Below, in pieces: positions 6,474-32,168 of a DNA stretch of 32,352 bases (its first letter is position 1; each line of letters starts with the position of its first letter). The DNA lies in the IMG/VR virus record IMGVR_UViG_3300010391_000069, positions 1 through 32,352 of that record; one strand, given 5' to 3'. The DNA comes from a virus. The notes beneath the pieces were generated by a model. It searched no databases. It was not told where the DNA came from and saw only the letters and a list, made by a program, of their open reading frames with translations. A program made the translations under genes and the position numbers.

Positions 6474-9400
6474 ATGGCAAATCCAATAATAAGACCGGAA
6501 ATGAGAATGAATAGTGATGAAGTAGACGTAAAACAAATGTCGTTGTTTGCACGTTTAAAGAAAATCTTTGCAACCGGTGTAGTTGTTCGTAATGTTGGTG
6601 GTAAGAAACTTAAAGTAAAAGATACCGGAGACCTAATGTATGCGACAGACCGAAACAGTCTTCGTGACCGTTTTAATCGTGTTCGTTCTACATCATATAA
6701 TGCCTATACAAGAGATTTTTCATTAGCGTATCAAGCAGCACGCATTGACCTATTTAGGGATTATGATTGTGTAGGACCAGATACCATTATACCTCTACCA
6801 GACGGAACTTATCCTACTATAGCTGAATTGACTGAAAAATATAAAGATAAACCACAGGAGAGATTTTATGTTTATTCTTATGACCATGTTAGTAAATCAA
6901 TAAAATTGGGCAGAGCATTTCATCCTAGGAAGAAAGGACAGAGAGTTGGATTTAAAGTTACTTTTGATAATGGTCAATATGTTATTGGTAGTATTAAACA
7001 TCCATTTTTAATGAGAGATGGAACATACAAAACCATTTTTGATCTTAAAGTTGGAGAAAGTGTGATGCCGTTTTATCAGAATAGTAATAAAAAGGGATAT
7101 AGAGGATTATATAATTTTTCTAAAGGATGGCAAACCGAACATAAAATTGTTGCAGAACAATTTAATAGACCTTTAAATGAAAATGAAGTTGTACATCATA
7201 AAAATTTTAAACCATCCATAAATCTTCCTGATAATTTAATGATTATGACAAAATCTGAACATTCTGCATATCATATGAATATTTCTACCAAAAAGATTTG
7301 GTCAAAAGAAAATAAACCTATTATGTTAGAAAAAGTAAGAAACTCATATGGTTACAAAAATAGAAAGTTTCATAAATGGAATGGTGAAAGACAGGGTGAA
7401 AATAATCCTTTTTACGGAAAAATACATACTGAAGAGTCAAATGATCAACGATCAAAAACGCTGAAAGAAGTGTTTGTTGATAGAGATCAAACCGGTGAAA
7501 ATAATCCAAAACATAGAGACGATCTTTCCGTCGAAGTATTGAGGATGAAGGCTGTTGAGTATTATAAAGAAAACGGGAAATTGACTTCTTGGGGATTGGT
7601 AAAAAATATTGGGTGTGATTATTCCGTTTTACAAAATAGATTGAAAAATTTTAATACTGATTGGAAATCATTCAAAAATGATGTAGTTTCTACTCTTAAT
7701 CATAAAATAATATCCGTTGAATGTATAGGACCGTTAGAAGTGTATGATTTTACCGTTGAAAAATATCATAACTTTGCGACTGATAGTTGCTTCGTCGCGA
7801 ACACTATGGACATGGATCCGATCATAGCGTCTGCTCTCGATATTTATTCAGACGAAAGTTTAACGGTTAACGAATATGGTAAAGTGATGGTAGTTCACGC
7901 AGAAGATGATAATATTAAAGGCATTTTAACCAATCTTTTTTATGATGTTCTTAATATTGAGCATAATCTCTGGTCTTGGACTAGAAATATGTGTAAATAT
8001 GGTGATTTTTACATGAGATTATATATCTCCCCTGAATATGGTGTTTATCAAATTGAACCTATTTCTGCTTATAATGTTGAACGTCTTGAGAATACAGATC
8101 CACTCAATAAGAACTACGTTAAATTCCAAATTCGTCCTACCGATACATCACAAGTAGAAACATTAGAATCGTTTGAATGTGCTCACTTTAGATTACTTTC
8201 TGATTCTAACTTTTTGCCATATGGTAAATCAATGATTGAAGGTGCTCGGCGTGCTGGAAACAATTATCACTACTTGAAGATGCTATGTTAATCAATCGTA
8301 TCATGCGTGCTCCTGAGAGACGTATTTTCAAGATTGATATTGGTAATATTCCTCCTGGAGAAGTTGATGCTTTTATGGAGAAAATGATGGCTAAAACCAA
8401 GAAAGTTCCATATGTTGATCAACAAACCGGAGATTATAATCTTCGCTTTAATCTTATGAACATGGTAGAAGATTTTTATCTTCCTGTTCGTGGTACTGAT
8501 AGTGGAACTTCCATTGAAACTTTAAGTGGTATTGAATGGACTGGTATTGATGATATTGAATACGTTCGTAATAAAATGATGGCAGCTTTGAAGATTCCGA
8601 AGGCTTTCTTGGGTTATGAAGAAGAACTTTCTGGTAAGGCCACGTTAGCGTCAGAAGACGTAAGATTTGCTAGAACCATTCAAAGAGTTCAAAGAATTCT
8701 TATTTCAGAATTAGAAAAGATTGCTATTGTTCATTTATATTCTCAGGGGTATCGTGATGAATCTCTTGTTAATTTTAAGATTGAACTTACTAATCCATCA
8801 ACGATCTTTGAAAAGGAAAAGATTGAAGTGTGGAGTAATAAGGTAGATGTAGCTTCAAGAATGATGGAAATCAAACTCTTTCCTAAAACTTGGGTTTATA
8901 AGAATGTATTCAATCTTTCTGTTGATGATATTGAAGGATTACAAGATGAGATTGTTGATGATTCTAAACAACTTTATCGTTTTCGCTCTATTGAGGAAGA
9001 AGGTAATGATCCAGCTCAACCATTCAAGAAAATCAATCCAAATGCTCAGCCTGGCCAAGGCGGAGGAATGGGTGGATTACCTCCCCCTGATATGGGGGGC
9101 GGATTAGGCGGAGGATTAGGCGGAGGATTAGGCGGAGCTGATTTAAGTGGCGGAGGATTGGGTGGAGGATTGGGAGGTGGATCACCTCCTTTAATGGAAA
9201 CAGAAGAGAGTGATAAAGATGTGGTTAATGAACTTCCAAATCAACCAGATCCTATGTCTCCCACGGATTCTGAAATATCTGAGGAACACGGTGTCCATTC
9301 AGATGAATATAAAAGAACTCGTGATCAAACTGGAGAACATAAAGCATCAGATCATCCATTTGGAGAAGATCCTGATGGCCATTTAGAAATAAAAACTGCT

Positions 9401-9631
9401 ATGGCAACAGGTAGAGCAGATAGAAGATTAACGAATAAATCTTCCAAAGTTTCTCCTTTAGCTTTAGAAGCTGAAAGACAACGTAAAGTAGATACTATGA
9501 AAAAAGGTAATATAATTACTAGCCTTGAGGCATATCTTACCAAGAATAGGGGGAATGAAAAGAAAACATTAATTAAAGAAAATGATGGAAATAAGTCTAT
9601 AATGGACCCGGATGTGCTAATTGATGAGTAA
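6474..9631 (+). CDS. 20: Portal (head-tail vertex) protein, T4 gp20 type, with intein and one frame break
   Basis: The portal dodecamer seeds the prohead and docks the terminase. The extein starts MANPIIRPEM and includes the gp20-type segments MDMDPIIASALDIY, MRAPERRIFKIDIGN and FLGYEEELSGKATLASED. A 345-residue intein interrupts it between Y-D and T-M (residues 99-443). Near 8252-8258 the frame breaks: frame 1 runs out at TAA 8291 with an unlikely tail. The -1 frame reads WKQLSLLEDAMLINR, the expected family sequence, and continues to 9631. One extra base (for example GCT TGG instead of GCTGG) restores a precursor of about 1052 aa, or about 707 aa after splicing. The C-terminus carries a Gly/Leu-rich repeat and a charged tail (about residues 860-1052) not found in T4 gp20. 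Confidence 0.93.
6768..7802 (+). other. Intein with HNH/NUMOD homing endonuclease domain in the portal protein
   Basis: Splicing block A is CVGPDTIIPLPDG starting at Cys99. Block B is GSIKHPFLM. The C-terminal blocks are VYDFTVEKYHNFATDS and the terminal FVAN with Asn443, followed by Thr444 as the +1 extein residue. The usual penultimate His is Ala here. Between the splicing blocks lie an HNH-type nuclease (VVHHKNFKPSINLPDNL and SEHSAYH), two NUMOD3-like DNA-binding motifs (ENNPFYGKIHTEES; ENNPKHRDDLS) and a helix-turn-helix-like segment (SWGLVKNIGCDYSVLQNRL). The element is 345 codons, in frame and apparently intact, so it should be able both to splice and to home. The insertion point lies in a conserved part of the portal, as is typical of inteins. 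Confidence 0.92.
9097..9182 (+). repeat. Tandem GGCGGAGGATTA-type repeats encoding a Gly-Gly-Gly-Leu linker
   Basis: Near-identical 12-base units encode repeated GGGL in the C-terminal tail of the portal protein. A similar Gly/Leu repeat, also followed by a PP-x-ME segment, occurs in the minus-strand protein at 22533-23033. Repeats of this kind can vary in copy number by slippage or recombination. Confidence 0.85.
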
Positions 9632-10578: not shown

Positions 10579-11272
10579 AATATTATTAAAACATATCATT
10601 TCTGAAATGATTGCTAACAAAGATGTAGAACCCGATGTCTGTGGGGCTGTTAATATTGGAGAAGACAAACTTTCAGAAGATATTGATCCTAGATTATCAG
10701 ATATTGTTTCTGCTCATTTAAAGGAAATGGGTAAGTTTGAAGATGCTAGGTTGTTAAAATATTCTAATAATATTAAAGAATTGTACAGTTATTTAAGAGA
10801 AAACGTATTTTTTAAAGATGCTCCAACTGCACAATTTATAGATCAGTGTATGAGTGAGTTAAGAGGAAAAGCAGAGGAACAAACAGGAACAGGAGCAGTT
10901 GCCGGATTTTCTCCTCCGTTTACTGGTGGTCCTCGAAGAAGGAAAAAGAGAAAAGTAGATGAAAGTAATTTTGTAAATAAAGTAAAAGAGAGGATTAGAA
11001 CATCGGTTAATACAGCTAAAACGATGGCTAATGAAAAGACTAATCCAGATGGAACATATTCTGATGATATGGAAGATCCTACTAAGACGAATAGAATTAT
11101 GGGATTAGCTGAAGAAACTAGTTCTGGAGCAGTTTTCTCTGGTGGTCCAACCATTCAAACTCCAGCGTGGGGAACACGTAACCGTGAAGGATCTCCTAGA
11201 GCTATTGCCGCAAGTAAGTCTCTCGGATATAAGCCCGTAAAAAGTATTTCTACCAAGGAAAAAAAGATATGA
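10559..11272 (+). CDS. Head-module protein with possible gp21-type processing leader
   Basis: The 237-aa product has a basic, hydrophobic N-terminus (MKVGKLKILLKHIISEMI) holding an I-S-E that fits a gp21-type cleavage site. A helical domain follows (about residues 45-105), then a strongly basic patch PRRRKKRKVDE near 135. Two copies of a short pattern, GTGAVAGFSPPF near 121 and SSGAVFSGGP near 189, resemble one another and similar strings in neighbouring genes. The basic patch could contact DNA. The gene overlaps its predecessor by 20 nt and its successor by 4 nt (ATGA). I do not recognise a family with a known function; a minor or internal head protein is the likeliest role. Confidence 0.65.
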   Translation: MKVGKLKILLKHIISEMIANKDVEPDVCGAVNIGEDKLSEDIDPRLSDIVSAHLKEMGKFEDARLLKYSNNIKELYSYLRENVFFKDAPTAQFIDQCMSELRGKAEEQTGTGAVAGFSPPFTGGPRRRKKRKVDESNFVNKVKERIRTSVNTAKTMANEKTNPDGTYSDDMEDPTKTNRIMGLAEETSSGAVFSGGPTIQTPAWGTRNREGSPRAIAASKSLGYKPVKSISTKEKKI

Positions 11273-12549
11273 TTAAGTTAAAGTCAATGTTAAATATTAC
11301 GGAACAGGCTCCCCAGCCTATGCCGGCTATAGGTGGTGCTCCACAGCCTATGCAGGCCCCAGCACCACTTGCAACAGCCGATCAACCATCCATTCCAGAA
11401 GAGCCAACAACTCCTGAACCTGATACAGATACTACTCCATCACCTGAAGATCCAGGTGAATATGATTGGACAAAAGATTTTCGTGCATTTGAAGATGCAA
11501 AAAATAAAGCTGAATCTCAAGCTAAGAAAAAACTTATTGATAAGATGAATAAACAACTTGTTGGTAAGAAAGTTACCACAAATGCTTCTCGTGGATATGG
11601 TCAACCAAAGACGGATCATACAATTGAACAAGTTAAAAAACTTAGTGTAGAGTTTTGGTATAAAGAATGGGTGGTTATTCTTCAAGATGAAAACGATAAA
11701 AAGTATTTCTTGACACCTGGTGTTAATATTAAGATTGAACAGGGTGGAGAATCAGGTTGTACTGAAGATCAAGCACCCGGAGAACCTGATGCTGCTGCAA
11801 CTGGTGCAACAGGAGAAGAACAACCAAATGCTGAAGTTCCAACTTCTACTGGAACCACTGGGGCTCCAGACCCTATGATGGGAGCAGGTACCGGAACAGC
11901 TATGGGTGCTCAACCTGAAGCAATGCCAACACAGGGACCTGGAGATCCAAATGTAGCAATGGCACAACCAGGAATGACAGGAACAACACCTCCTCCAGTT
12001 CCAGGACAACAACCACCTCAACCAGTTCCTCCAGAACAATTACCACCACCAAAGAAAAAGAAATTAGCTGAAGCTCCAAAAGAAAATTATAAAACGTGCC
12101 CAAGATGTAAAGGTAGTGGATCTCAAACAGATAAAGGTTGGCCAATGTGTAATCATTGCCAAGGAACGGGTAAAGTTGTAGATAAAGATAATGTTCCTTA
12201 TAGCAATCAAACAGAAACAATAAATAAAGATTTAAGATTTTTATTAGAATTTATGTCAGATGATGTTAGGGACTCCAAAGGAAATGTAGATTTCACACCT
12301 TATATCAAAGGAGTTAAAACCGCTATTAATGAAGGAAGAAATGCAAGTGTATATAGAGCCAAAATAGAAATTCCTATTAAACATATGAAACCATCTATTG
12401 ATGCAAGAGACGTTAAACTTGCTGCTCAAGAAGCTTTATGGTCTTCAGGAAATGTAGATTCTAGATTTAGTAGAGGTTCTATTAATGTTTCTCAAGTAGG
12501 GAGAATGTATATAATGGAATTTGTAAAGCAGAATGCATGGAAATCTTAA
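11269..12549 (+). CDS. Pro/Gly-rich head-module protein with a DnaJ-type zinc motif
   Basis: The 426-aa product starts MIKLKSMLNITE followed by a proline-rich linker, so it looks like a leader with an I-T-E processing site. A folded segment (about residues 63-160, starting DWTKDFRAFEDAKNKAES) comes next. A long low-complexity Pro/Gly/Thr/Ala region covers about 165-262. Then comes a zinc motif CPRCKGSGS and CNHCQGTGK (about 275-303) with the CxxCxGxG pattern of the DnaJ cysteine-rich domain. A C-terminal domain of about 120 residues follows. No J-domain HPD is present. The zinc motif may bind unfolded protein or simply brace the fold. The start overlaps the previous stop by 4 nt. The function is not known to me. 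Confidence 0.65.
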   Translation: MIKLKSMLNITEQAPQPMPAIGGAPQPMQAPAPLATADQPSIPEEPTTPEPDTDTTPSPEDPGEYDWTKDFRAFEDAKNKAESQAKKKLIDKMNKQLVGKKVTTNASRGYGQPKTDHTIEQVKKLSVEFWYKEWVVILQDENDKKYFLTPGVNIKIEQGGESGCTEDQAPGEPDAAATGATGEEQPNAEVPTSTGTTGAPDPMMGAGTGTAMGAQPEAMPTQGPGDPNVAMAQPGMTGTTPPPVPGQQPPQPVPPEQLPPPKKKKLAEAPKENYKTCPRCKGSGSQTDKGWPMCNHCQGTGKVVDKDNVPYSNQTETINKDLRFLLEFMSDDVRDSKGNVDFTPYIKGVKTAINEGRNASVYRAKIEIPIKHMKPSIDARDVKLAAQEALWSSGNVDSRFSRGSINVSQVGRMYIMEFVKQNAWKS

Positions 12550-13074: not shown

Positions 13075-13707
13075 ATGGATAATCGACAACTATTAATAAA
13101 TTGTATATCATTTGAACCAGTCAAGGATACTCTCTTTGAAGAGGCTAGTCGTGACCCGATGAGGAAACTAGTAGTAAAGGGTATTTTACAACGGGCTGGT
13201 ATTAAAAATCAAAATGGTAGAGTTTATCCAAAAGAAATTTTGGTTAGAGAATCCAGAAAATACGAAGAAAATTTCATTAAAGAAAGACGTGCAATTGGCG
13301 AATTAGACCATCCAGAATCTTCGGTGGTCAATCTTCAAAATGTTTCTCATAATGTAGTTGAGATGCATTGGGAGGGAGATGATCTTGTTGGTACAGTTGA
13401 AGTGTTGCCGACTCCAAATGGAAACATTTTAAGAGAATTATTTCGTTCAAATATTCGTTTAGGTATTTCTAGTCGTGGTTTAGGAACAATTAAGAAGGGT
13501 GTAAATGAAGATGCAGATTTCGTTCAAGATGATTTTGAACTTATTGCTTTTGATTTTGTAAGTAATCCCTCTACAAGAGGAGCATTTATGTTTCCTGCTG
13601 GTGCTCTTAGTGAAGGTGTTAATTCAAATGTTGTGAAAAATCCAGTTAATAATAAGTGGGAAACCATTGAAAATATTATACGGGATATATTAACAGAAAT
13701 AAGTTAA
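13075..13707 (+). CDS. 21: Prohead core protease, T4 gp21 type (S77 serine protease)
   Basis: This 210-aa protein matches the phage prohead protease family. The catalytic His is in GELDHPESS (H79) and the Ser in LGISSRGLG (S132 or S133). The family block DDFELIAFDFVSNPST follows, with an Asp at 160. The conserved RAGIKNQNGRVYP near residues 40-52 is also typical. In T4 the enzyme cuts scaffold, capsid and internal head proteins after I/L-x-E and then itself; possible self-cleavage sites here are TLFE near residue 22 and ILTE near the C-terminus. The gene sits 2 nt after its predecessor and 1 nt before the next gene, so it is part of one head operon. Confidence 0.93.
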   Translation: MDNRQLLINCISFEPVKDTLFEEASRDPMRKLVVKGILQRAGIKNQNGRVYPKEILVRESRKYEENFIKERRAIGELDHPESSVVNLQNVSHNVVEMHWEGDDLVGTVEVLPTPNGNILRELFRSNIRLGISSRGLGTIKKGVNEDADFVQDDFELIAFDFVSNPSTRGAFMFPAGALSEGVNSNVVKNPVNNKWETIENIIRDILTEIS

Positions 13708-14907: not shown

Positions 14908-15873
14908 ATGATAAATGAAATTTATATAAATGACATTAAACTTACATCGGAAAAGAATTTACCTACTAGAAATTCTATTAAAAAAGTTGATATAATATGT
15001 TTAAATTGTAAATCTGTAAGGACATTAAAAATATTTAGAAATTCATTTTTTAATACACCATATAAATGTATTTCCTGTAATAAAAAAGGAAATAATAATC
15101 CCTTTTATGGAAAGCATCATACAGATAAATCTAAAGAAAATATAGGTGGAGCATCCAAAAATTATTCCGGTATAAATAATCCCTTTTATGGAAAACATCA
15201 TTCTAAAGAAACTATAGAAAAATTAAAATCTAATATTAAATGTTTTCATATAGGTATTGGAAATCCTTTCTATGGAAAACACCATACAGATGAATCTAAA
15301 GAAAAAATAATAGAAAAAAATCTATTATATAGAAAAAATAATTTAGATATAATATTAGAAAATCAATTAAAAAATCTTAATCATTCTAAAAATGATTTTT
15401 TAATAATGTTAAATGATTATATTAATAATCCTCATAACAGAAAATCTATGTCTGATAAATATAATATAGATTTTAGGACTATGCAATATTATTGGTTATA
15501 TTTTAAATTTATAACCTATAAAGAATTAAAAGATTTAAAAATTCGTAAAAAATTATATTCCAATCCATCAAAACCAGAATCAGATTTATATGAATTATTA
15601 AAAAACGAATATGGAGATGTTAATGTAAAACAAAATTATGAAATAAATGGATATTATTATGATATATGTCTATTTAATAAATTCGTAATAGAATACGATG
15701 GATACTATTGGCACAAAATCATTAAAAATAAAAATGATGAAATTAAAAATGATATTGCAAAAAAACAAGGATATCTAATTTATAGAATTACGGAGAATGA
15801 AAATCGATTAACAGATTTAAATAAATCACTTAATGATATAAAAACTTTACTTTTTAATAATGGTGTTGTATGA
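14908..15873 (+). CDS. Free-standing homing endonuclease, NUMOD3 repeats plus Vsr-like (EDxHD) nuclease
   Basis: The 321-aa product has two N-terminal CxxC pairs (C31/C34, C54/C57). Three NUMOD3 DNA-binding repeats follow around NNPFYGKHH (about residues 62-75, 90-102 and 118-130). A DUF559/Vsr-like nuclease domain closes the protein: E224 in SKPESDLYELL, then YDICLFNKFVIEYDGYYWH (D252 to H269). This layout matches the EDxHD homing endonucleases, of which I-Bth0305I is the described example. Such genes spread by cutting alleles that lack them. It lies just after the terminator and overlaps the next gene by 14 nt, as expected of a mobile gene wedged into a junction. Its codon use is more A-rich than that of the neighbouring head genes. 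Confidence 0.88.
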   Translation: MINEIYINDIKLTSEKNLPTRNSIKKVDIICLNCKSVRTLKIFRNSFFNTPYKCISCNKKGNNNPFYGKHHTDKSKENIGGASKNYSGINNPFYGKHHSKETIEKLKSNIKCFHIGIGNPFYGKHHTDESKEKIIEKNLLYRKNNLDIILENQLKNLNHSKNDFLIMLNDYINNPHNRKSMSDKYNIDFRTMQYYWLYFKFITYKELKDLKIRKKLYSNPSKPESDLYELLKNEYGDVNVKQNYEINGYYYDICLFNKFVIEYDGYYWHKIIKNKNDEIKNDIAKKQGYLIYRITENENRLTDLNKSLNDIKTLLFNNGVV

Positions 15874-16831
15874 TATACAAGTGAATGATTTTATATTATC
15901 TTACGACAATGTATATTTAAGACCTAAATATTCTGAATTAAAAAGCAGAGATGATGCTGATACATCTGTAGAATTTTTAGGAAAAAGATTTAAACTTCCT
16001 GTTATACCATCTAATATGCAAGATGTTATAAATTGGAAACTTGCTAGTGATTTAGTATTAAATGGATATTTTTATATTATGCATAGATTTGATAATGCTA
16101 ATTTGAAAATGCCCGAGGCCGTTAAAGAAATTGATTGTTTTAGAAGTATAAGTGTAGGTGTAAATCAAAATTCCAAAGACGAATTGATAAAATTTCAAGA
16201 ATCTAACACTAATATAGAATTTATAACAATCGATACTGCACATGGTCATCATGTAAAAACAAAAGAAATGATATCATGGATTAAAAAAACTTTTACGAAA
16301 AAAACAAAAATAATTGCTGGAAATGTTGCTACATCAGATGGTTATAAATTTTTATGTGATTTGGGAGTAGATGCTGTTAAATGTGGAATAGGTGGTGGAT
16401 CAATATGTAGCACAAAATTTCAAACAGGATTTCATTTACCGACTCTTCAATCAGTGTATGAATGTTCCAATTTAGGATTAAATATACCAATTATTGCCGA
16501 TGGTGGAGCAAAATACTATGGGGATATTGCTAAAGCATTAACTCTAGGTGCCACAATGGTTATGTCAGGGGGTTGGTTTGCTTCTTGTATTGACTCACCA
16601 GCAAAGATTGTGAGTGGTAAGAAAGTATATCGTGGTTCTACATCATATGAAGCAAAAGGAAATAATAGACATGTAGAAGGAAGAACTCTTGAATTGGAAG
16701 AAGGCTTAACTTATCAACAAAGAATGGAAGAGATTAAACAAGCATTACAAAGTAGTATATCATATGCGGGAGGCGAAGATTTAACAGCATTTAACTTTGT
16801 AGAGTTTGAAAGAATTTTACCGTATTATTAA
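15860..16831 (+). CDS. guaC: GMP reductase / IMP dehydrogenase family enzyme
   Basis: This 323-aa TIM-barrel enzyme acts in purine nucleotide interconversion. Family signatures are LSYDNVYLRP at the N-terminus, the phosphate and nucleotide segment IIAGNVATSDG near 151-161, the catalytic loop GIGGGSICSTK with Cys183, IIADGGAKYYGDIAKAL near 211-227, and YRGSTSYEAKG near 257-267. No CBS domain pair is present. The length and the HVEGRT segment fit GMP reductase (GMP to IMP, NADPH-dependent) better than IMP dehydrogenase. The substrate cannot be proved from sequence, so the symbol is tentative. It could rebalance purine pools during phage DNA synthesis. The start ATG lies within the end of the homing endonuclease. 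Confidence 0.85.
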   Translation: MVLYDIQVNDFILSYDNVYLRPKYSELKSRDDADTSVEFLGKRFKLPVIPSNMQDVINWKLASDLVLNGYFYIMHRFDNANLKMPEAVKEIDCFRSISVGVNQNSKDELIKFQESNTNIEFITIDTAHGHHVKTKEMISWIKKTFTKKTKIIAGNVATSDGYKFLCDLGVDAVKCGIGGGSICSTKFQTGFHLPTLQSVYECSNLGLNIPIIADGGAKYYGDIAKALTLGATMVMSGGWFASCIDSPAKIVSGKKVYRGSTSYEAKGNNRHVEGRTLELEEGLTYQQRMEEIKQALQSSISYAGGEDLTAFNFVEFERILPYY

Positions 16832-18726: not shown

Positions 18727-18749
18727 CCCCTACCCTAAAGGGATAGGGG
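18727..18749. repeat. Subterminal hairpin, tnpB-side end of the element
   Basis: CCCCTACCC pairs with GGG-A-TAGGGG across a TAAA loop, a 9-bp stem with a bulged A at 18743. It would be the folded DNA substrate for TnpA. On the minus strand it lies where the TnpB guide RNA (omega RNA) is expected to end, next to the flanking phage sequence. The tnpB stop codon (18730-18732) is inside the stem. Confidence 0.8.
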
Positions 18750-19869
18750 CTTGAACGGCCCCGAGGAGCGGGGACTTATATTCATTTGGCGTATTGACTG
18801 ACGCCTGCCCATCAAGTATGTTTCCATACGAAACGGGAAGTTTGGACCTCTTTGCTATATTCATAGCAGCATTAAGGTCAGCATCATACACAAGTCCACT
18901 TTTCGCAAAGAACCTACAACCTCTCCTATTACCTTCCAGCAATCCAGTCATACTATCAATCTGGGAAGTGTATTGGGGGCTAACAAGAACAACGCTCTTT
19001 CCAGCGTTTTCTGCCTTATAGGTTATTACTCTGCGAAGTTCGTATAATGGAACTTGTCCGATGCTATGTTTGTTTTGGTATTTGTTTTTCTTTCGTTTTA
19101 TGCTTTTCAGGTTCTCTAAACAAATGGTATCAGCATTAGTGTTAAGAACTATATTGGAAATCAAATGTGTTTGTTTCTTATTCTTATTTCTCTCTTTTCG
19201 TCTCAAAGAATATCTCAATTTCTTTCTGGCTGCTTTAGTTCCTTTGGACTTAAGTTCATCCTTAATATGCCGCAATCGTCTTTTGTCTCCGTTAAACTTT
19301 CTATCAATAATCACTCTGCCATCACTCATAGCAGCAGACCTGCGAATACCTAAATCAACTCCCAATGCTAATCTCTGCTTCACTTTCTCAACCTTATTCT
19401 CAAAAGAGAAAGCAATACAAATCTTTCCACTATCCTCATAGATAAGCGGGTCTTTGTATTGGTATTTTTCCATCAATTCTTTCAATCGTGGATACACAAC
19501 AAACTTAAATGTTTGTCTTTTGCCTGTGGTGGTGATACGAATAGAGAACTTATCAGGTATAGAGTAAAGTCGCTTATCTAATCTCATTGATAGGTTCTTC
19601 TTCTCAATCAATTTCTTTTTATGATTATTGGATTTAGCAGACCGATAGGAAGAAAGAACTTCCTGCTCTGCTTTGATTACAACTTGCGAAGGTATTTCTG
19701 GATTGGATTTGCGAACATTGTGATATACTTTGGAGTGTAGAACTACAAGAGAGTTTTTCTGCTCTGGTAGTTGTTGTTTAGAAGCATAATTGAATACAAA
19801 ACGATGGAACTCAAGCAACTTTTTCAGTTCTTGACTATCTCCTAAAATCGTGGTATTGTATGTAATCAT
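18730..19869 (-). CDS. tnpB: TnpB RNA-guided nuclease, zinc-finger cysteines absent
   Basis: I start at the internal ATG (MITYNTTILGDSQ), giving 379 aa; the frame is open 15 codons further upstream. The RuvC-like residues are in place: D172 in GVDLGIRRSAAMSDG, E252 in ICLENLKSIKRKK and D330 in YDADLNAAMNIA. Usually a four-cysteine zinc finger (two CxxC) lies between the last two. Here that stretch reads YTSQIDSMTGLLEGNRRGC and FFAKSGLV, so the CxxC pairs are replaced. I recall the SQID...TGLLEG pattern from other TnpB proteins, so this may be a natural subgroup rather than decay. TnpB is guided by an RNA made from the element end and cuts empty donor sites, which helps keep the element. Confidence 0.9.
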   Translation of the reverse strand: MITYNTTILGDSQELKKLLEFHRFVFNYASKQQLPEQKNSLVVLHSKVYHNVRKSNPEIPSQVVIKAEQEVLSSYRSAKSNNHKKKLIEKKNLSMRLDKRLYSIPDKFSIRITTTGKRQTFKFVVYPRLKELMEKYQYKDPLIYEDSGKICIAFSFENKVEKVKQRLALGVDLGIRRSAAMSDGRVIIDRKFNGDKRRLRHIKDELKSKGTKAARKKLRYSLRRKERNKNKKQTHLISNIVLNTNADTICLENLKSIKRKKNKYQNKHSIGQVPLYELRRVITYKAENAGKSVVLVSPQYTSQIDSMTGLLEGNRRGCRFFAKSGLVYDADLNAAMNIAKRSKLPVSYGNILDGQASVNTPNEYKSPLLGAVQAPIPLG

Positions 19870-19890
19870 ACTTGAGTATGAGTATAAGTA

Positions 19891-19937
19891 TATCATACAA
19901 AGAGAAAAAATCAATCTTTTTCGTATTTTGTATGATA
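19891..19937. promoter_or_regulatory. 11-bp inverted repeat in the tnpB-tnpA divergent region
   Basis: TATCATACAAA (19891-19901) and TTTGTATGATA (19927-19937) form a perfect inverted repeat with 25 nt between, in the gap between the divergent transposition genes. It could be an operator for joint control or a stem in the tnpA leader that hides translation; the right arm ends 10 nt before the tnpA ATG. Confidence 0.6.
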
Positions 19938-19947
19938 GTTATTGTAT

Positions 19948-20358
19948 ATGAGTAAAAAACAGAATTATCATCACGGGTCGCATAGCAAGTATTTACTTCA
20001 ATGCCATTTGGTTTTTGCTACGAAATATAGAAAAAGGATTTTGAGTGGACAACTGGATGACGATTTGAAGCAAATAATGTTGGACATATCCAATGAGAAA
20101 GGTATAACTATTGTAGCAATGGAAACAGATTTGGACCATATACACTTAATGGTTGACTATTCCCCTACTAAATCCGTTTTGGAAATGGTGAATAATTTCA
20201 AGTCAATTTCAACCTTTAGGATATACAAGAAGCATAGAGCATTTCTTAAAGGACATTTTTGGAAAGAGAATACATTATTTAGTGATGGATACTTTGTATG
20301 TTCGGTTGGAGAAGCATCACCAGAAGCAATTAAGAAATACATTGAAACACAAGGATAA
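19948..20358 (+). CDS. tnpA: IS200/IS605 Y1 transposase TnpA
   Basis: The 136-aa product has the normal length of the family. It shows the N-terminal YLLQCHLVFATKYRKRIL, the HUH metal-binding pair in DLDHIHLMVDY (H64, H66) and the catalytic tyrosine Y131 in AIKKYIETQG. It cuts and rejoins single-stranded DNA at the hairpin ends, moving on the lagging strand at replication forks. An in-frame TTG at 19942 is an alternative start; I prefer the ATG at 19948 (MSKKQNYHHG). The gene appears intact. A phage with many forks would be a good vehicle. Confidence 0.95.
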   Translation: MSKKQNYHHGSHSKYLLQCHLVFATKYRKRILSGQLDDDLKQIMLDISNEKGITIVAMETDLDHIHLMVDYSPTKSVLEMVNNFKSISTFRIYKKHRAFLKGHFWKENTLFSDGYFVCSVGEASPEAIKKYIETQG

Positions 20359-26117: not shown

Positions 26118-27881
26118 ATGGAAAATATTAAGTCATTATTGACAAATACTTCTAATCCTCAAGCTCATTTGATGCAGACAACCCGTGGTCTTGTGACCAA
26201 GTGGGATAGGACTGGTCTTCTTGAAGGTATTAAAAGTGATACAGAAAAATCAAATATGTCTGTTCTGCTTGAGAACCAAGCTCTACAGCTTATTAACGAA
26301 GCTACCTCAACGGGTACTTCAGCTAACTCTGAACAGTGGGCCGGTGTTGCACTGCCTCTAGTAAGACGTGTATTCGCTGAGTTTGCTGCTAAGGAGTTCG
26401 TCTCCGTTCAGCCAATGAATCTGCCATCAGGTCTTGTATTCTACTTGGACTTCAAGTATGGTATAACCCAAGGTGGTCAGCCGGCTGACAGTGCAACAGT
26501 ATATCAATCACTATTCGGTGGTACGGGAACCAAACTTGGTTCTACAGACAATACCGTGGGTGGTTTGTATGGTGCAGGCAAGTTTGCTTATACCATTAAT
26601 GATAGAGTTATAACTGCAAGTGTTACAACTGCAGTAGCAACCCTTGAAGATATTAATTGGTTATCTAATTATTATACTCAAGTAGCTCAATCTGGATCTG
26701 TTCAACAAGTTTTGAATAGTATCTCAACATCATTCGCTTCTGGACAAATCTACAGAGTAACGACAACGAATCTTCTAGCCGGTACGACCGGAGCAGGCAA
26801 TGTATTTGATGCTAGTGCAATTCGTTCATTTGTTCCTTGTTCTACAGGTTCAGGTGCCGGTGCTTGGTATTTCCCATCATTCACTAAGCAGAGTGGAACA
26901 GAAGTTCAATTCGTAATGTCTGGTTCTGTAGTCGCTGGCGAAAGTGTAGCTGAATTGTCAGGTTCTGGAATGAAGGTCATTTATAGCGTTCAACCAAAGG
27001 ATAGTAACCGTGGTGACTTTGAAGATGCTACCAGTACTTCTGTTGGTTCATATTTTAACCCAGCAGGTAAATCAACAACCGATACTGGTCTTAACAAGGA
27101 CATTGGTATTCCAGAAGTCAACCTTGAGTTGAAGAGCGAACCTATCGTAGCTAAGACTCGTAAGTTGAAGGCAGTCTGGACCCCAGAATTGGCTCAGGAC
27201 TTGAATGCTTATCACAGCATTGATGCCGAAGCTGAACTTACCGCTCTATTGAGCGAGTATGTATCGATGGAAATCGATCTGGAAATCCTCGACATGTTGA
27301 TCGTAAACGCACCAGCAATCAATACTGAACGTTGGAGTGCTAAGATTAACCGTGAAATCGTCTCAGACGGTTCGGGTGGATATATGGCAGTTGATCAAGT
27401 AACGGCAGGAGCCGGTGGATATTATACCAAGGCAACTTGGTATCAGACCCTTGGTAACAAGGTTCAGAAGGTATCCAACAGGATTCATCAGTTAACTCTC
27501 CGTGGTGGTGCCAACTTTCTGGTTGTCTCCCCATCGGTAGCAACGATTCTGGAATCTATTCCAGGCTACGTTGTAAGCACTGACGGTGATCAAGCTAAGT
27601 TCGCTATGGGCGTAAGCCGCGTAGGATCCTTCGCTAATCGCTTCCAGGTTTACAAGAACCCATACATGATTGACAACGTCATTCTAATGGGCTTCCGTGG
27701 AAATAACTTCCTCGAAACCGGTGCTGTATATGCTCCGTACATTCCATTGGTCCAGACCCCGTTGGTCTATGACCCAGTGAACTTTACGCCTCGCAGGGGC
27801 GTAATGACAAGGTACGCTAAGAAGATAGTACGTCCCGAGTTTTATGGAAAATTGCTAATAGCAGATTTGGACACGGTATAA
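26118..27881 (+). CDS. 23: Major capsid protein, T4 gp23 type
   Basis: The 587-aa product has an N-terminal leader ending in LQLINEATSTG; cleavage after E61 would fit gp21 processing, as T4 gp23 loses a similar leader at FLTE-A. HK97-fold family segments follow: VRRVFAEFAAKEFVSVQPMN (about residues 79-100), the FLDLKYG-like FYLDFKYG, the central ELKSEPIVAKTRKLKAVWTP, and the terminal TRYAKKIVRPEFYG. It is longer than T4 gp23 (521 aa); part of the excess lies in a Ser/Gly/Thr-rich insertion at about 150-320. Codon use is less AT-rich than the rest of the window, typical of a very highly expressed gene. A strong terminator follows 24 nt later. Confidence 0.95.
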   Translation: MENIKSLLTNTSNPQAHLMQTTRGLVTKWDRTGLLEGIKSDTEKSNMSVLLENQALQLINEATSTGTSANSEQWAGVALPLVRRVFAEFAAKEFVSVQPMNLPSGLVFYLDFKYGITQGGQPADSATVYQSLFGGTGTKLGSTDNTVGGLYGAGKFAYTINDRVITASVTTAVATLEDINWLSNYYTQVAQSGSVQQVLNSISTSFASGQIYRVTTTNLLAGTTGAGNVFDASAIRSFVPCSTGSGAGAWYFPSFTKQSGTEVQFVMSGSVVAGESVAELSGSGMKVIYSVQPKDSNRGDFEDATSTSVGSYFNPAGKSTTDTGLNKDIGIPEVNLELKSEPIVAKTRKLKAVWTPELAQDLNAYHSIDAEAELTALLSEYVSMEIDLEILDMLIVNAPAINTERWSAKINREIVSDGSGGYMAVDQVTAGAGGYYTKATWYQTLGNKVQKVSNRIHQLTLRGGANFLVVSPSVATILESIPGYVVSTDGDQAKFAMGVSRVGSFANRFQVYKNPYMIDNVILMGFRGNNFLETGAVYAPYIPLVQTPLVYDPVNFTPRRGVMTRYAKKIVRPEFYGKLLIADLDTV

Positions 27882-27905: not shown

Positions 27906-27930
27906 GAAAACCCCCATTTTGGGGGTTTTC
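27906..27930 (+). terminator. Rho-independent terminator after the capsid gene
   Basis: GAAAACCCCC and GGGGGTTTTC form a perfect 10-bp stem around a 5-nt ATTTT loop. The last stem bases supply a T-tract of four, so it is a strong hairpin with a modest tract. Confidence 0.85.
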
Positions 27931-27957
27931 CTTTGTACCACAAATAATAATCAATAG

Positions 27958-27990
27958 GAGCCTTGATTTATAAATCAAGGCTCTTTTTTT
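27958..27990 (+). terminator. Second terminator: 26-nt perfect palindrome plus T7
   Basis: GAGCCTTGATTTA at 27958-27970 is directly followed by its exact reverse complement to 27983, then seven T. The symmetry would let it work from either strand, although only the plus side has the T-tract. It insulates the ParB/ART genes from the capsid transcript. Confidence 0.85.
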
Positions 27991-28011: not shown

Positions 28012-28019
28012 TATTTATA
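28012..28019 (+). promoter_or_regulatory. Candidate late-promoter element TATTTATA
   Basis: The motif follows the double terminator and ends 5 nt before the ATG at 28025, with no ribosome binding site in between. Because it restarts transcription after a terminator, it is the best placed of the candidates. Confidence 0.5.
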
Positions 28020-28024
28020 CTCAT

Positions 28025-30685
28025 ATGATGAATTTGATGGATACTCTGAAAAAAGGAATAGATAGAGAAGATGCTATTCTTATAGAAAAATTTCCTATTA
28101 AATCATTATCTTTATCAAAAAAAGCTATAAATGCTGGTATGGTAGATGTAAGAAAAGGAAGTGGGAGTTTCACAAAAGGACCGGTAGAAGTAATGTATAA
28201 TATTGAAAATGGTCAGTTTATTATTACCGATGGTTATCATAGAATTGTAGATTATTTATCAAAAAAGAAACAATTTATACCAATCAAAATCTGGTCTACC
28301 ACTTATTCTGATTATCATGCTAATATTCAGAAAGATGATTTATTTTTTGAGCCAATTCCTTTGAATAGTTTTCCTTCTTTTGGTGAAGATGTTTTATTAG
28401 AAGAACAAACCAATATACTAAACAATCTAAATTTTAAGAAGTGGTTTGGTAATAGTAAAGTTGTTGATAAAGACGGAAATCCATTAAAAATGTATCATGG
28501 AACCGGAAGTGATTTTACAAAATTTGAGCATGAGAAAACAGGAGGAGTAGGATTTTATTTCACATCAGATCCAGAAGAAGCAAATATATATGCTGGTTTT
28601 AGGCGTGGAGAAAATATGAATGTTATGCCAGTTTATCTAAGTATTAAAAATCCGGCAACCACTGAAATTGAAGAATCTATTGCTAAAGAATTGCAAGGAA
28701 GACTTGGTGGAAACCCACGATTACATATAAATAGAGTACTTCAACAACGGGGATATGATGGAATAATCAGAGGCACTCATATGATTGCTTTTTCTCCTAA
28801 TCAAATTAAATCTGCTATAGGAAATACAGGAAATTTTGATATTAATGATCCAAATATTCTTAAAGAAGTAGTAGAAGAACTTGTTAAAGAAGCATTATTT
28901 GACCCCACATCGCATTCTGGCGGTCTTCATAAAGTTTCCAAAAACTTTTGGTTAAATCCTGATGGAAAGTTTATACCCATTCCAATGCAAGGACATAATA
29001 CTTGGGCGTCAACATATGTTCAAGGTTGGCCGGAGAAATATGCACAAAAATTACAACTAATGAATCCTCAAAATGTGTTATACCGAGAAAATTGGATAAA
29101 GGTTGTTTTGTATGATATTTGGGAAGATCCCGTTCTTAGAATAGAATATTATCCAGAAGTTCCTCCAAACCAAACTCAAGAGTTGGCATTGAGGAGATTT
29201 ATTCAAGAGTTTAATGCTGATAAAAACCATAAAAATAAAATAACTCATATTCAGGATGATACCAAAAGAACAAGAATACAACTTCAGGAATCTATTGGCG
29301 GCCAAAAATATGATTATATTGGTGGTATCTTTGAAGGAGAAGTAAGAGCTGAAAGACTTCCTTTTGGAAAAGCGAGATTTAGAGCTCATAGTGAGTTTAC
29401 TGGTTTATATTCAGGACAGAACCACACAAATTGGAGATACTATGCTGATAAAAATAAAGTAATGTGGAATCTTCATCCAGATCCAGAAAATGTAGAAAAA
29501 GTAAATAGGTTTTTAGAAGAAAGAGGAATATTAAATCCTACACATTCTTCGATATATAGAAGATTGGGGGAAAACACAAAAGCATTAAATGAATGGCACC
29601 AAAATTTTCCACTAAAAGTTGCTATAGATCCTTCTAGTAATGTGGCGTATTTTTGGAGAGGAAATAGACCAGCGGGACGTTTTTTATTAACAGGAAATTC
29701 AAATCATCCTTTATTATCAGTAGGCGTACAAAGAAGTTTACAAGGAACTGGAATTGGTCATGCGATGATTGAATTTGCTTTTAGAAAAACAAAATTAAAT
29801 ACACTTAATATATATTCTGCTAATAGTTCTAGATCATTTTACTTAAAAATTGGTGGAGTTAAAACTAAACATCCTTCCATTATTGAGATACATAAATCAA
29901 ATTTTAAACCGCCGAAATGGAAATTTGAAGAAGTACCGTTTAATACTGAATTAAAATTTAATTACAAAACAGGAAGTGACACAAGTATGGATTCTAACTA
30001 TGGTATTCATGAAGATGTTGAACCATTAGATGAACGAATGTCCTTCGCTGATCTCTATGATGATACAGATGATGAAAGAATATTCAAGTCCAAACTTCCA
30101 GGAATGCGTGTTCGACCAATGGCAATCTCAATGGAAAATGGAAATGAAACTTGGAACTTTGGTTATACTTCTCAAGAAAAGGCTCAATATAAAAGACATA
30201 GAGATAAAGTAGGTCATAAAGGTAGAATTATTTTCTTTAAAGATAGTGTAGAACCAGATGATAATGCAGAAGATCTTGAGTGTATGGTTGATTGTGATTG
30301 TAAGGATTTTCAAATGCGGTTTGCTTATGTTGATGCTCAACAAGATGCTAGTATGATTGGTCCAAATAGTTTGAATAAAGCTATAAACAGACCTCCATTA
30401 AAAACAAATCCAGAAGGTGATACAAAACTTTGTAAACATTTAGCGGCTCTTATTCGTTATTTGGTAACCAATCTTGATCGAGCAAGGGAAAGAGCCCATC
30501 TTCGCAGAAGACCATTTAATATTTTTGAAGAAATGGATGCATTAACTGGTAAGAAGAATGATACCACAAATTATTATGATAAAGAGAATGGTTTAAATGA
30601 GGGTGTAAATAAAATTGGTTATGATAGAACACGATCATTCCGATTTGCCTATGGATTGGGATGCCATCGATATTCCTACAGATAG
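28025..30685 (+). CDS. Multidomain ParB-like / ADP-ribosyltransferase / GNAT / SWIM-like protein
   Basis: The open frame reaches back into the terminator, so I start at ATG 28025 (28028 and 28037 are alternatives), giving 886 aa. Domains in order: a ParB-like fold with TDGYHRIVDYL (residues 68-78); an ADP-ribosyltransferase-like domain (about 134-280) with KMYHGTGSDF, GVGFYFTSDPEEANIY, GYDGIIRG and PNQIKSAIGN, the pattern of the ART domain of phage polyvalent proteins; an unknown region (about 290-510); a GNAT acetyltransferase with acetyl-CoA loop QRSLQGTGIGHAMIEFA (about 569-585) and NSSRSFYLKIGG; and a SWIM-like zinc motif C757-x-C759 and C803-x-H805. It ends in TAG, and the next frame overlaps by 65 nt. 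Possibly packaged and injected to modify host proteins (inference). Confidence 0.8.
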   Translation: MMNLMDTLKKGIDREDAILIEKFPIKSLSLSKKAINAGMVDVRKGSGSFTKGPVEVMYNIENGQFIITDGYHRIVDYLSKKKQFIPIKIWSTTYSDYHANIQKDDLFFEPIPLNSFPSFGEDVLLEEQTNILNNLNFKKWFGNSKVVDKDGNPLKMYHGTGSDFTKFEHEKTGGVGFYFTSDPEEANIYAGFRRGENMNVMPVYLSIKNPATTEIEESIAKELQGRLGGNPRLHINRVLQQRGYDGIIRGTHMIAFSPNQIKSAIGNTGNFDINDPNILKEVVEELVKEALFDPTSHSGGLHKVSKNFWLNPDGKFIPIPMQGHNTWASTYVQGWPEKYAQKLQLMNPQNVLYRENWIKVVLYDIWEDPVLRIEYYPEVPPNQTQELALRRFIQEFNADKNHKNKITHIQDDTKRTRIQLQESIGGQKYDYIGGIFEGEVRAERLPFGKARFRAHSEFTGLYSGQNHTNWRYYADKNKVMWNLHPDPENVEKVNRFLEERGILNPTHSSIYRRLGENTKALNEWHQNFPLKVAIDPSSNVAYFWRGNRPAGRFLLTGNSNHPLLSVGVQRSLQGTGIGHAMIEFAFRKTKLNTLNIYSANSSRSFYLKIGGVKTKHPSIIEIHKSNFKPPKWKFEEVPFNTELKFNYKTGSDTSMDSNYGIHEDVEPLDERMSFADLYDDTDDERIFKSKLPGMRVRPMAISMENGNETWNFGYTSQEKAQYKRHRDKVGHKGRIIFFKDSVEPDDNAEDLECMVDCDCKDFQMRFAYVDAQQDASMIGPNSLNKAINRPPLKTNPEGDTKLCKHLAALIRYLVTNLDRARERAHLRRRPFNIFEEMDALTGKKNDTTNYYDKENGLNEGVNKIGYDRTRSFRFAYGLGCHRYSYR

Positions 30686-31688
30686 AAAATGGGATGAATA
30701 TTCTGTAAGAAAGTTTGTTGGTTTACCAAATAATTTTATTGCTATATATCCTGCTATTATAGATCTTAATGAATTAGAAGCTCATACAGGAGGAGATGAA
30801 GAAAGTAGAATAGATGATTATACATATGATGATTTTAGATTCAAAAAACGAGGATTTCCACCAATAATAGTAAGAAGAGATTTATCAGATCGTCTAATTG
30901 TGGTAGATGGAAATCATCGAGTTTATTGGGCTCAACGACATGAGAATTATCAAACTATTGGAGCTTGGGTTATTGATGAAATAATGCAGAGAGATATAAT
31001 GCATAAAAATAAACAAAATATTAAAGAAACTAGAATTATAACTCCAGAAGAATCTCTATATGAAGGATATATTACTTTATATCATGGAACCACTTGGCCT
31101 CTTGCTCTTAAAGCCAAAAAAGGAGAACTAGGACCTCAAGATATGGAGAAACTGATTATAGATGTTTTAGTCAATGTTTATCACGAAACTCCTCAGGATG
31201 CTAAAAAATATTATGACAAATATTCTGAATCAAGAAAAAAAGATCCAAAAGCATTATTTTTAACTACCAACAAAGAGAGTGCTAAAGCATATGCTACAGC
31301 ATCAACTAAATATGGGGGAGAAATATTTTTAGATGTTCTTAGTCCTTATTTATGGGAAAAAAATAAAATAATTAGGTTAGATTCATTTAAAATTCTAAAA
31401 ACTGATCAACCGGCTATTGTTACTGTAAATGTTCCAATTTCTATGGTTTTAACACACCCACATTGGGTCACTCCATTAAGAGATCGCCTTAGAAGTATAT
31501 TTGACCCCAGAAAAAGAATACAATATGGAAGAGATACTTGGAAAGATCTTAATCTTGATAATTTACGAATAGAGGTATTTGTTAAAGAAAATATACCAGC
31601 AAGATTTGTTCAGAGAATTGACAGAATTAAAAGTTTACCGGATTCACAATTGGCGCCTGCCACCGGCTCTCCTCCACTCCCTCAATAA
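30621..31688 (+). CDS. Second ParB-like / ADP-ribosyltransferase protein
   Basis: From ATG 30621 the product has 355 aa; an in-frame TTG lies 6 nt upstream. A ParB-like domain occupies about residues 40-125, with IIVRRDLSDRLIVVDGNHRV (DGNHR at 96-100). An ADP-ribosyltransferase-like domain follows, with ITLYHGTTWPLALKAKKGEL (YHGT at 154-157), ALFLTTNKESAKAYATAS near 211-228 and a closing EVFVKENIPARFV near 318-330, where E318 may be the catalytic Glu. The leader SLYEG just before the ART domain contains an L-Y-E that might be a gp21 site. The start overlaps the previous gene by 65 nt in the +1 frame, so the two could also be one protein broken by an indel. The 3' end overlaps the convergent gene by 62 nt. 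Confidence 0.75.
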   Translation: MIEHDHSDLPMDWDAIDIPTDRKWDEYSVRKFVGLPNNFIAIYPAIIDLNELEAHTGGDEESRIDDYTYDDFRFKKRGFPPIIVRRDLSDRLIVVDGNHRVYWAQRHENYQTIGAWVIDEIMQRDIMHKNKQNIKETRIITPEESLYEGYITLYHGTTWPLALKAKKGELGPQDMEKLIIDVLVNVYHETPQDAKKYYDKYSESRKKDPKALFLTTNKESAKAYATASTKYGGEIFLDVLSPYLWEKNKIIRLDSFKILKTDQPAIVTVNVPISMVLTHPHWVTPLRDRLRSIFDPRKRIQYGRDTWKDLNLDNLRIEVFVKENIPARFVQRIDRIKSLPDSQLAPATGSPPLPQ

Positions 31689-32157
31689 AGGGAGAAATCT
31701 TCGGACTTTGTAAAGCTTCTTTGAAACATTGATGCCAAGTCTTTTGGATAGGATTTCCTACTTCATTTAATTCAGGATTATTATATATTTTCTTGGCTTC
31801 AGAGACCCAGGTACTTGATACTTTATTCGTATGAGATCTAACTCTTTCGTATAATTTTGCGTTTGTATCTCCCTTTTTCTTAAGACCCTTTGTCTTTATT
31901 TTAATACGATATTTGGTTGGTTCTCCTTCCGTTATCGTTATACTTGCGGTTGATTGCTTGTTATGCCAGTTATTGGACTCTTTATACAGAAACCATCCAT
32001 CACCTTCTACGATCCCATCCCAGCTTTCTTTGTCGTCTGGAGAGCCAGGGAGAGGGCGTAATTGACTATCCTGCGATGACATAGACCCCATGCCTATCGT
32101 ATTTCCACCATAAGCACCAGCTCCTTCAAGGAATATAAGGGTTTTTAACTTAATCAT
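31627..32157 (-). CDS. Hypothetical protein with MIKLK leader
   Basis: The 176-aa product begins MIKLKTLIFLEGAGAYGG, sharing MIKLK with two other proteins here and having an L-E followed by a Gly/Ala stretch, as a processing site might. The rest is soluble, with SWDGIVEGDGWFLYKESNNW near 44-63 and a basic segment KGLKKKGDTNAKLYERVRS. The ATG lies 3 nt after a TATTTATA motif on this strand. The 3' end overlaps the convergent ParB/ART gene by 62 nt. No family is recognised. Confidence 0.6.
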   Translation of the reverse strand: MIKLKTLIFLEGAGAYGGNTIGMGSMSSQDSQLRPLPGSPDDKESWDGIVEGDGWFLYKESNNWHNKQSTASITITEGEPTKYRIKIKTKGLKKKGDTNAKLYERVRSHTNKVSSTWVSEAKKIYNNPELNEVGNPIQKTWHQCFKEALQSPKISPFIEGVEESRWQAPIVNPVNF

Positions 32158-32160
32158 ATT

Positions 32161-32168
32161 TATAAATA
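32161..32168 (-). promoter_or_regulatory. Candidate late-promoter element TATTTATA (minus strand)
   Basis: Read on the minus strand, the motif lies between the stop of the upstream partial gene (32170) and the ATG at 32157, 3 nt before the latter, with no space for a ribosome binding site. Confidence 0.45.

Follow-up and report, generated by a model that had tools for sequence, protein, structure and literature searches.

A probable late head-delivered effector set, with p1 and p2 built as fusions of tagged modules, in an uncultured T4-like myovirus

What role is played by the large, multi-domain proteins encoded directly 3' of the capsid gene of an uncultured phage, and how might they reach their targets? 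The question is raised by a 32,352-base metagenomic record (IMG/VR IMGVR_UViG_3300010391_000069; the whole of this stretch is referred to here as the window), in which two adjacent open reading frames (ORFs), p1 and p2, follow the gene for the major capsid protein gp23 and are accompanied by a small gene, p3, on the opposite strand. An initial annotation of the window had already placed two such ORFs beside the capsid gene, where they are indeed present, and had proposed that they may be late and head-associated. Our analysis points the same way, in that (i) separate counterparts of their modules carry a capsid-targeting-like tag, and (ii) the junctions between the fused modules keep a motif of the prohead-protease type. 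We thus regard p1, p2, and p3 as probably constituting a late head-delivered effector set of a T4-like myovirus; p1 and p2 are probably packed in the head because they are built from modules that relatives make separately with a head-packaging-like tag. The genes concerned are:

26118..27881, plus strand: major capsid protein gp23 (PF07068, E 7e-72)
28025..30685, plus strand: p1, a polypeptide with ParB-like, ADP-ribosyltransferase (ART), mid, GNAT, and SWIM-like modules, directly 3' of gp23
30621..31688, plus strand: p2, a protein with ParB-like and ART-like modules; should a frameshift link it to p1, it would form the C-terminal part of that chain
31627..32157, minus strand: p3, a small tagged protein (MIKLKTLIFLE) whose family, in relatives, adjoins the SWIM-like module or is fused to it

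The tag, MIKLKxLLxE, is a common N-terminus on unrelated proteins encoded 3' of gp23 in relatives. Across 1015 proteins, the motif is found at 54 of 3045 N-terminal positions versus 10 of 276,086 positions elsewhere (a 490-fold enrichment); as DNA, it gives 45 matches in 19 records, versus three for a reversed control. When 53 tagged proteins were scanned, matches were obtained to ART-PolyVal (seven), GNAT (four), Nudix (three), tRNA-nucleotidyltransferase-like (two), and HD (two) models, with single matches to thymidylate kinase, 2H, an Acb1 model for proteins acting against cyclic-oligonucleotide-based antiphage signalling (anti-CBASS), lysozyme, and cell-wall hydrolase. In nine related records, each of the seven ART-PolyVal genes carries the tag. 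It is also borne by head-core genes near gp21, both in the window (at 11269) and in a related record (L061:6092). N-termini are likewise enriched, 59-fold, in a second tag type, a helical one. In T4, targeting sequences of 10-19 residues act as short propeptides that direct the internal proteins and Alt to the head, and gp21 removes them by cutting after L/I-x-E (PMC9026906). We favor a capsid-targeting reading because the tag matches these T4 sequences in place, length, and ending; p3 and relatives display the features of a capsid-targeting sequence, i.e., a short N-terminal propeptide with an L/I-x-E end, present on unrelated head proteins.

Tagged genes also occur in a cultured isolate, Microcystis phage Mel-JY01 (PP395634, 60276-62718; L199), where three of them lie at 60276, 60923, and 62056; the products begin MIKLKSLLQE, MIKLKSLLKE, and MIKLMSLVTE, carry ART-like WHLTT..SA motifs, and bear no annotation beyond "hypothetical". 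A 353 kb phage record (L202; G007:C1:231000-237300) encodes a run of five tagged genes, for GNAT-like, 2H-like, unassigned, ART, and tRNA-nucleotidyltransferase-like products. In Flavobacterium phage immuto, the MIKLK tag is absent; two of its genes 5' of the terminase (MW353176, 22588-23888; L083) share the N-terminus F[DN]L[KR][KS]FL[VT]EN, which is maybe another phage-specific targeting sequence, such that tag sequences may differ between phages.

The head region of the window is of T4 type (terminase piece, gp20 portal, gp21 protease, scaffold-like gene, and gp23) and includes two further genes that bear on the tag:

11269..12549, plus strand: head-core gene, two genes 5' of gp21, with N-terminal tag MIKLKSMLNITE (score 11.95 against a position-specific scoring matrix [PSSM] of the tag)
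13075..13707, plus strand: gp21-type prohead protease (Peptidase_S77, E 8e-26)

This protease is presumed to be the processing enzyme of the tagged proteins, and the tag score of the head-core gene exceeds that of every internal Met site. The gp23 of the window, which shares approximately 51% identity with its Mel-JY01 and immuto counterparts and up to 77% with those from many uncultured contigs, itself has a tag-like N-terminus (MENIKSLLTN), with LLE/G (here and below, a slash marks the cut-site position) at the expected end of its N-terminal propeptide. Throughout the clade, gp23 N-termini start M.[ND][IV]K[SE]LLTN, or M(x)[IV]K[SEQ]LLTN across L001-L102; their likeness to the cargo tag may reflect scaffold binding by both.

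Alignment with relatives shows p1 and p2 to be fusions of tagged modules in which L/I-x-E-type sites are kept at or near the junctions. Relatives whose gp23 is similar have separate tagged genes for the ART, SWIM-like, and mid (WxxPxG) modules of p1, as well as for the ART of p2, and internal junctions were located by mapping such separate mature parts onto the longer proteins. The p1 N-terminus and the junctions are:

28025..28054, plus strand: p1 N-terminus MMNLMDTLKK, divergent and tag-like
28394..28402, plus strand: junction 1, LLE just before the p1 ART, at the tag end of separate homologues (LILE, LLFE)
28859..28906, plus strand: junction 2, second-type tag element LKEVVEELVKEALFDP at the ART/mid junction
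30026..30034, plus strand: junction 3, LDE before RMSF
30593..30601, plus strand: junction 4, LNE/G just before the coding-frame switch; the weakest site, with no free homologue to align
31020..31028, plus strand: junction 5, IKE/TRII in p2, in exact alignment with LLE/TRII of a separate homologue

At junction 3, the separate SWIM-like homologues read MIKLKDLLLE/KMSF, MIKLRDLLCE/RMSF, and MISFANIMRKMLLE/RMSF, compared with EPLDE/RMSF in p1; the Glu before the module is invariant in 21/21 family members, whether N-terminal or internal, and nearly all have Leu or Ile two positions ahead of it, with Val in L084. At junction 5, a separate ART homologue from L098 (MIKLKSLLE/TRIIDPQTSL) aligns exactly with p2 (MHKNKQNIKE/TRIITPEESL), and a Met plus degenerate tag seem to survive inside p2 before its ART. 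Junction 1 aligns with an offset of 2-3 residues, the separate ART homologues of L098 (MINLKHLILE/SVTNTSEFKRWFG) and L201 (MIKLKVLLFE/GMTDTPEFKQWFG) being set against DVLLE/EQTNILNNLNFKKWFG in p1. The type-2 tag motif has exactly one match in p1, at junction 2; separate tagged versions of the mid module following it are found in L084 (E 1e-4) and, by motif only, in L011 and L021. Other fusions in relatives keep internal sites as well, namely tag-ART-ParB-x-SWIM in L084 (TVTE/RMSY), Nudix-thymidylate kinase-SWIM in L098 (EVLTE/RYSF), and mid-SWIM-p3-like in L102 (QLLTE/RMSF). Overall, [LIVM]xE lies within 8 residues at 40 of 64 internal junctions versus 27% expected (binomial p 5e-9, with kinship ignored). 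The 17 L/I-x-E motifs of p1 were not all taken to be cut sites, as many lie inside domains. The p1 N-terminus outscores 99.9% of 5323 internal Met sites and falls far short of true tags.

What, then, would such proteins deliver? The modules identified are:

28070..28357, plus strand: p1 ParB/Srx-like module (DGYHR), weak profile matches
28433..28834, plus strand: p1 ART-PolyVal domain (PF18760, E 6.8e-27)
28946..29296, plus strand: p1 mid domain (WxxPxG...HxxWA; E 4e-7 to L003, 1e-4 to L084)
29630..29866, plus strand: p1 GNAT acetyltransferase-like domain (QGTGIG; PF13673, E 4e-5)
30035..30538, plus strand: p1 SWIM-like zinc module (CxC..CxH; E 3e-30 to L003)
30651..31034, plus strand: p2 ParB/Srx-like module (DGNHR; phrog_1033, E 2.8e-4)
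31029..31541, plus strand: p2 ART-like module (47% identity, E 3e-39, to L098:13443-13979)

The initial annotation had seen a ParB-like and an ART-like domain in both proteins and, with them, two possible ADP-ribosylation activities. For p1, the ART is firm: PF18760 scores 95.4 bits against a curated cut-off of 31.2, and the H-Y-D residues are kept in a 46-sequence set (H158 in 46/46, an aromatic residue at the Y178 position in 42/46, and D245 in 46/46). It is also the sole confident part of the p1 AlphaFold model, its blocks mostly having a predicted local distance difference test (pLDDT) score of ~90 or more. The only PDB match to this model below E 0.001 is a pre-ejectosome protein of cyanophage A4 (9k3a chain B; E 2.9e-4), the match being partial with low TM-scores (0.28/0.09); tankyrase and PARP-1 rank below it and are not significant. 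Matches to p1 in tblastn searches of phages come mainly via the ART; whole p1 and whole p2 found no matches in viral-contig searches. The p2 ART is less complete, scoring 22.9 bits (E 1.6e-4) against PF18760, i.e., below the cut-off. It keeps the His (H157) and may be catalytically altered, since Phe replaces Tyr (F215) and no Asp-Gly was found, leaving p1 alone with an intact active site. A search with a p2-ART alignment returned nothing beyond the contig already known, and the p2 ART subfamily is therefore narrow; tblastn of p2 against phages gave no matches, and its AlphaFold model was discarded (pLDDT 38).

The ParB-like half of that assignment fared less well. Profile searches gave only phrog_17560 at E 0.009 for the p1 module, and the three best PDB matches of a 4-sequence profile were all SbnI, a ParB/Srx-fold protein (E 0.04-0.13); the DG and HR of D-G-x-H-R are invariant in these four sequences. 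Pfam ParB_N (PF02195) matched neither p1 nor p2 and formal assignment to it was rejected, nor were there Pfam matches in either protein to DdrB-type ParB, metallopeptidase, or LPD domains. The ParB-like part of the p1 model has pLDDT <50, and we therefore make no fold claim for it; suggestions that these proteins are DNA-bound or act as CTP switches found no evidence in this analysis. The two additional p1 features previously described are upheld, as PF13673 scores 24.0 bits on the isolated GNAT segment versus a cut-off of 23.6 (the whole protein falls below it), and all four CxC..CxH ligands (C/C at 30293-30301, C/H at 30431-30439) are invariant in 21/21 homologues. The Pfam SWIM profile did not match this module, in which the ligand pairs are separated by a long loop (~43 residues).

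When would p1, p2, and p3 be made? Two kinds of signal lie between gp23 and p1:

27906-27930 and 27956-27985: two terminator-like hairpins 3' of gp23
28013..28019, plus strand: ATTTATA late-promoter-like element, ending 5 nucleotides before the p1 ATG at 28025

The promoter-like motif noted earlier for this locus is part of a clade-wide pattern, with ATTTATA ending 3-7 nucleotides before the ATG in 154/1233 ORFs of gp23-bearing relatives (L001-L112) and a sharp spacing peak at exactly 4 nucleotides (82 ORFs). It resembles a late -10 element from which leaderless mRNAs would arise, and its placement supports the p1 start at 28025. An element also lies 3 nucleotides 5' of the p3 start (window 32161-32167), which suggests that p1 and p3 transcription is late and possibly leaderless; matches to sigma-70-type promoters were no more frequent than in shuffles. 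A double terminator had likewise been described, and the two hairpins are present, but such sites do not exceed chance (3 seen versus 2.1 expected in shuffles).

At the p1/p2 border, the last ~22 p1 residues (30620-30685) are not coding-like. Because p2 lacks an ATTTATA element and codon usage at 30605-30620 shifts sharply out of the p1 frame into that of p2, p2 is probably read from the p1 transcript or frameshift-joined to p1; a sequencing error is possible. The p3 family is often encoded near a SWIM-like gene and is fused to the SWIM-like module in L102 (L102:7641-9197).

These elements can be assembled into a model. Following late synthesis of p1, p2, and p3, the tag would serve as a propeptide for capsid targeting and bind the scaffold core, allowing tagged proteins to be incorporated in the prohead core, after which the gp21-type protease would remove the tags. 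The same protease may also cut p1/p2 internally, releasing ParB-like, ART, GNAT, and SWIM-like pieces that would accompany the DNA into the host cell. Once inside, the ART would modify some host components by ADP-ribosylation and the GNAT others by acetylation, with the ParB-like and SWIM-like modules acting on or near nucleic acid; such injected effectors would perhaps take over the host. Internal cutting is plausible because the junction Glu is invariant; it is less certain than packaging because L/I-x-E is short and several p1 sites lie away from the junctions. These last two points weigh against the model more generally, as do the weakly tag-like p1 N-terminus and the p2 N-terminus that is not tag-like, the weak support for the ParB folds, and a p2 that is possibly inactive as an ART. 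Furthermore, the p values are optimistic because related sequences are not independent, and packaging and cleavage are read from the sequence of a 32 kb metagenomic fragment that comes with no cultured host.

This last circumstance leaves room for p1, p2, and p3 to be polyvalent-type effectors that are made in the infected cell (for late lysis or anti-defense functions) and never packaged, the tag directing them elsewhere, e.g., to a replication or assembly compartment; tags in jumbo relatives, which also lie far from gp23 and in several places in the 353-369 kb genomes, would fit such a scheme. We consider it unlikely, given that the tag is common to head-core proteins beside gp21, resembles the gp23 N-terminus, and ends in a gp21-type L/I-x-E, while the interspersed GIY-YIG homing-endonuclease genes and tail-fiber-like genes are untagged. 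The degenerate state of the internal p2 tag remnant (MHKNKQNIKE) could also signify that p1/p2 are packaged and remain uncut, functioning as intact multi-domain polyvalent proteins, large examples of which are known (PMC5512222), with the internal L/I-x-E and tag-like sequences as fusion scars. This alternative deserves serious consideration even if we lean away from it, as the Glu preceding the SWIM-like module never varies, be the version separate or fused, unlike a neutral scar.

The same degenerate p2 tag, together with the p2 ART substitutions, might instead betray decayed or structural proteins whose enzyme-like folds are kept as head-stabilizing or decoration parts. Conservation of H158, Y178, and D245 in p1 makes this very improbable, as does the variation in cargo types between relatives, which is unlike that of structural parts. 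Extended across relatives, the packaging model would have the clade carry an interchangeable, ART-rich injected effector set with a readable code (MIKLKxLLxE plus the second helical tag), p1 (perhaps p1-p2) being a polyprotein packaged as one chain and cut inside the capsid. We advance this wider proposal tentatively, with its chances a little short of even.

Elsewhere in the head region, the gp20 portal gene (6474-9631) contains an intein-splicing domain with an HNH endonuclease, and its frame continues in a second ORF at 8285. An IMP dehydrogenase/GMP reductase-like gene (15860-16831) lies between gp21 and the scaffold gene. At 18730-20358, a TnpB/OrfB-like gene (minus strand) adjoins a short plus-strand ORF resembling an IS200 transposase; this looks like an IS200/IS605-type insertion inside the head region.

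Phage proteins injected with the DNA are known for few phages only. If the tag does encode capsid targeting, one could list from sequence, and then test, the effectors injected throughout this clade of uncultured T4-like phages (ARTs, acetyltransferases, Nudix, and 2H/anti-CBASS-like enzymes), and Mel-JY01 provides a cultured, tag-bearing isolate in which to do so. The injected proteome of uncultured phages would thus become readable from sequence alone. A polyprotein processed inside the head would be a mode of delivery for which no description was found in the open-licence literature; neither was one found there of a clade-wide targeting tag on a changing effector set, nor of head-cargo fusions keeping the tag cut site at module junctions.

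How does this locus compare with known systems? The initial annotation knew of no equivalent with the same domain order; the domain list alone is not new, because ART and GNAT in one phage protein have already been described (PMC5512222) and the p1 ART model is matched by a phage protein whose database annotation is ParB/Sulfiredoxin. The polyvalent proteins of Iyer et al. 2017 (PMC5512222) are, like p1/p2, multi-domain, with effector domains encoded near late genes and predicted injection, as proposed for p1/p2; they include the same ART family as p1 (Tox-ART-HYD2 clade, Pfam ART-PolyVal) and ParB-like domains too. Unlike these, p1/p2 have no detected DdrB-type ParB, metallopeptidase, or LPD hallmarks, and their modules meet at sites resembling capsid-targeting or prohead-protease sequences and also occur as separate proteins under the same tag. 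The Dar/Ddr antirestriction proteins of phage P1 (PMC12810830) are similar in that several head-packaged proteins are co-injected, and DdrB is a polyvalent prototype with a ParB-like domain (PMC5512222); the capsid system and the proteins differ, and no MIKLK-type shared tag is described for them (PMC12810830). The cyanophage A4 protein that partially matches the p1 ART fold is likewise an ejection protein inside the capsid, albeit belonging to a podovirus ejectosome, going by the title as cited in PMC12810830.

T4 itself offers the parallel in delivery that had been drawn for this locus. The internal proteins IPI-III and Alt have a short N-terminal propeptide ending in L/I-x-E within a gp20/gp21/gp23 head of the same type, and Alt is a packaged, injected ART (PMC9026906), as proposed for p1. 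The parallel holds for delivery and not for ART clade, as Alt has an R-S-E triad where the polyvalent ART clade has H-Y-D (PMC5512222); with H-Y-D in place of R-S-E, membership of p1 in the T4 Alt/VIP2 clade was rejected. The tag sequence (MIKLKxLLxE) also differs from those of T4, and each genome in the clade of the window has many cargo genes, some of them fusions that retain tag remnants internally.

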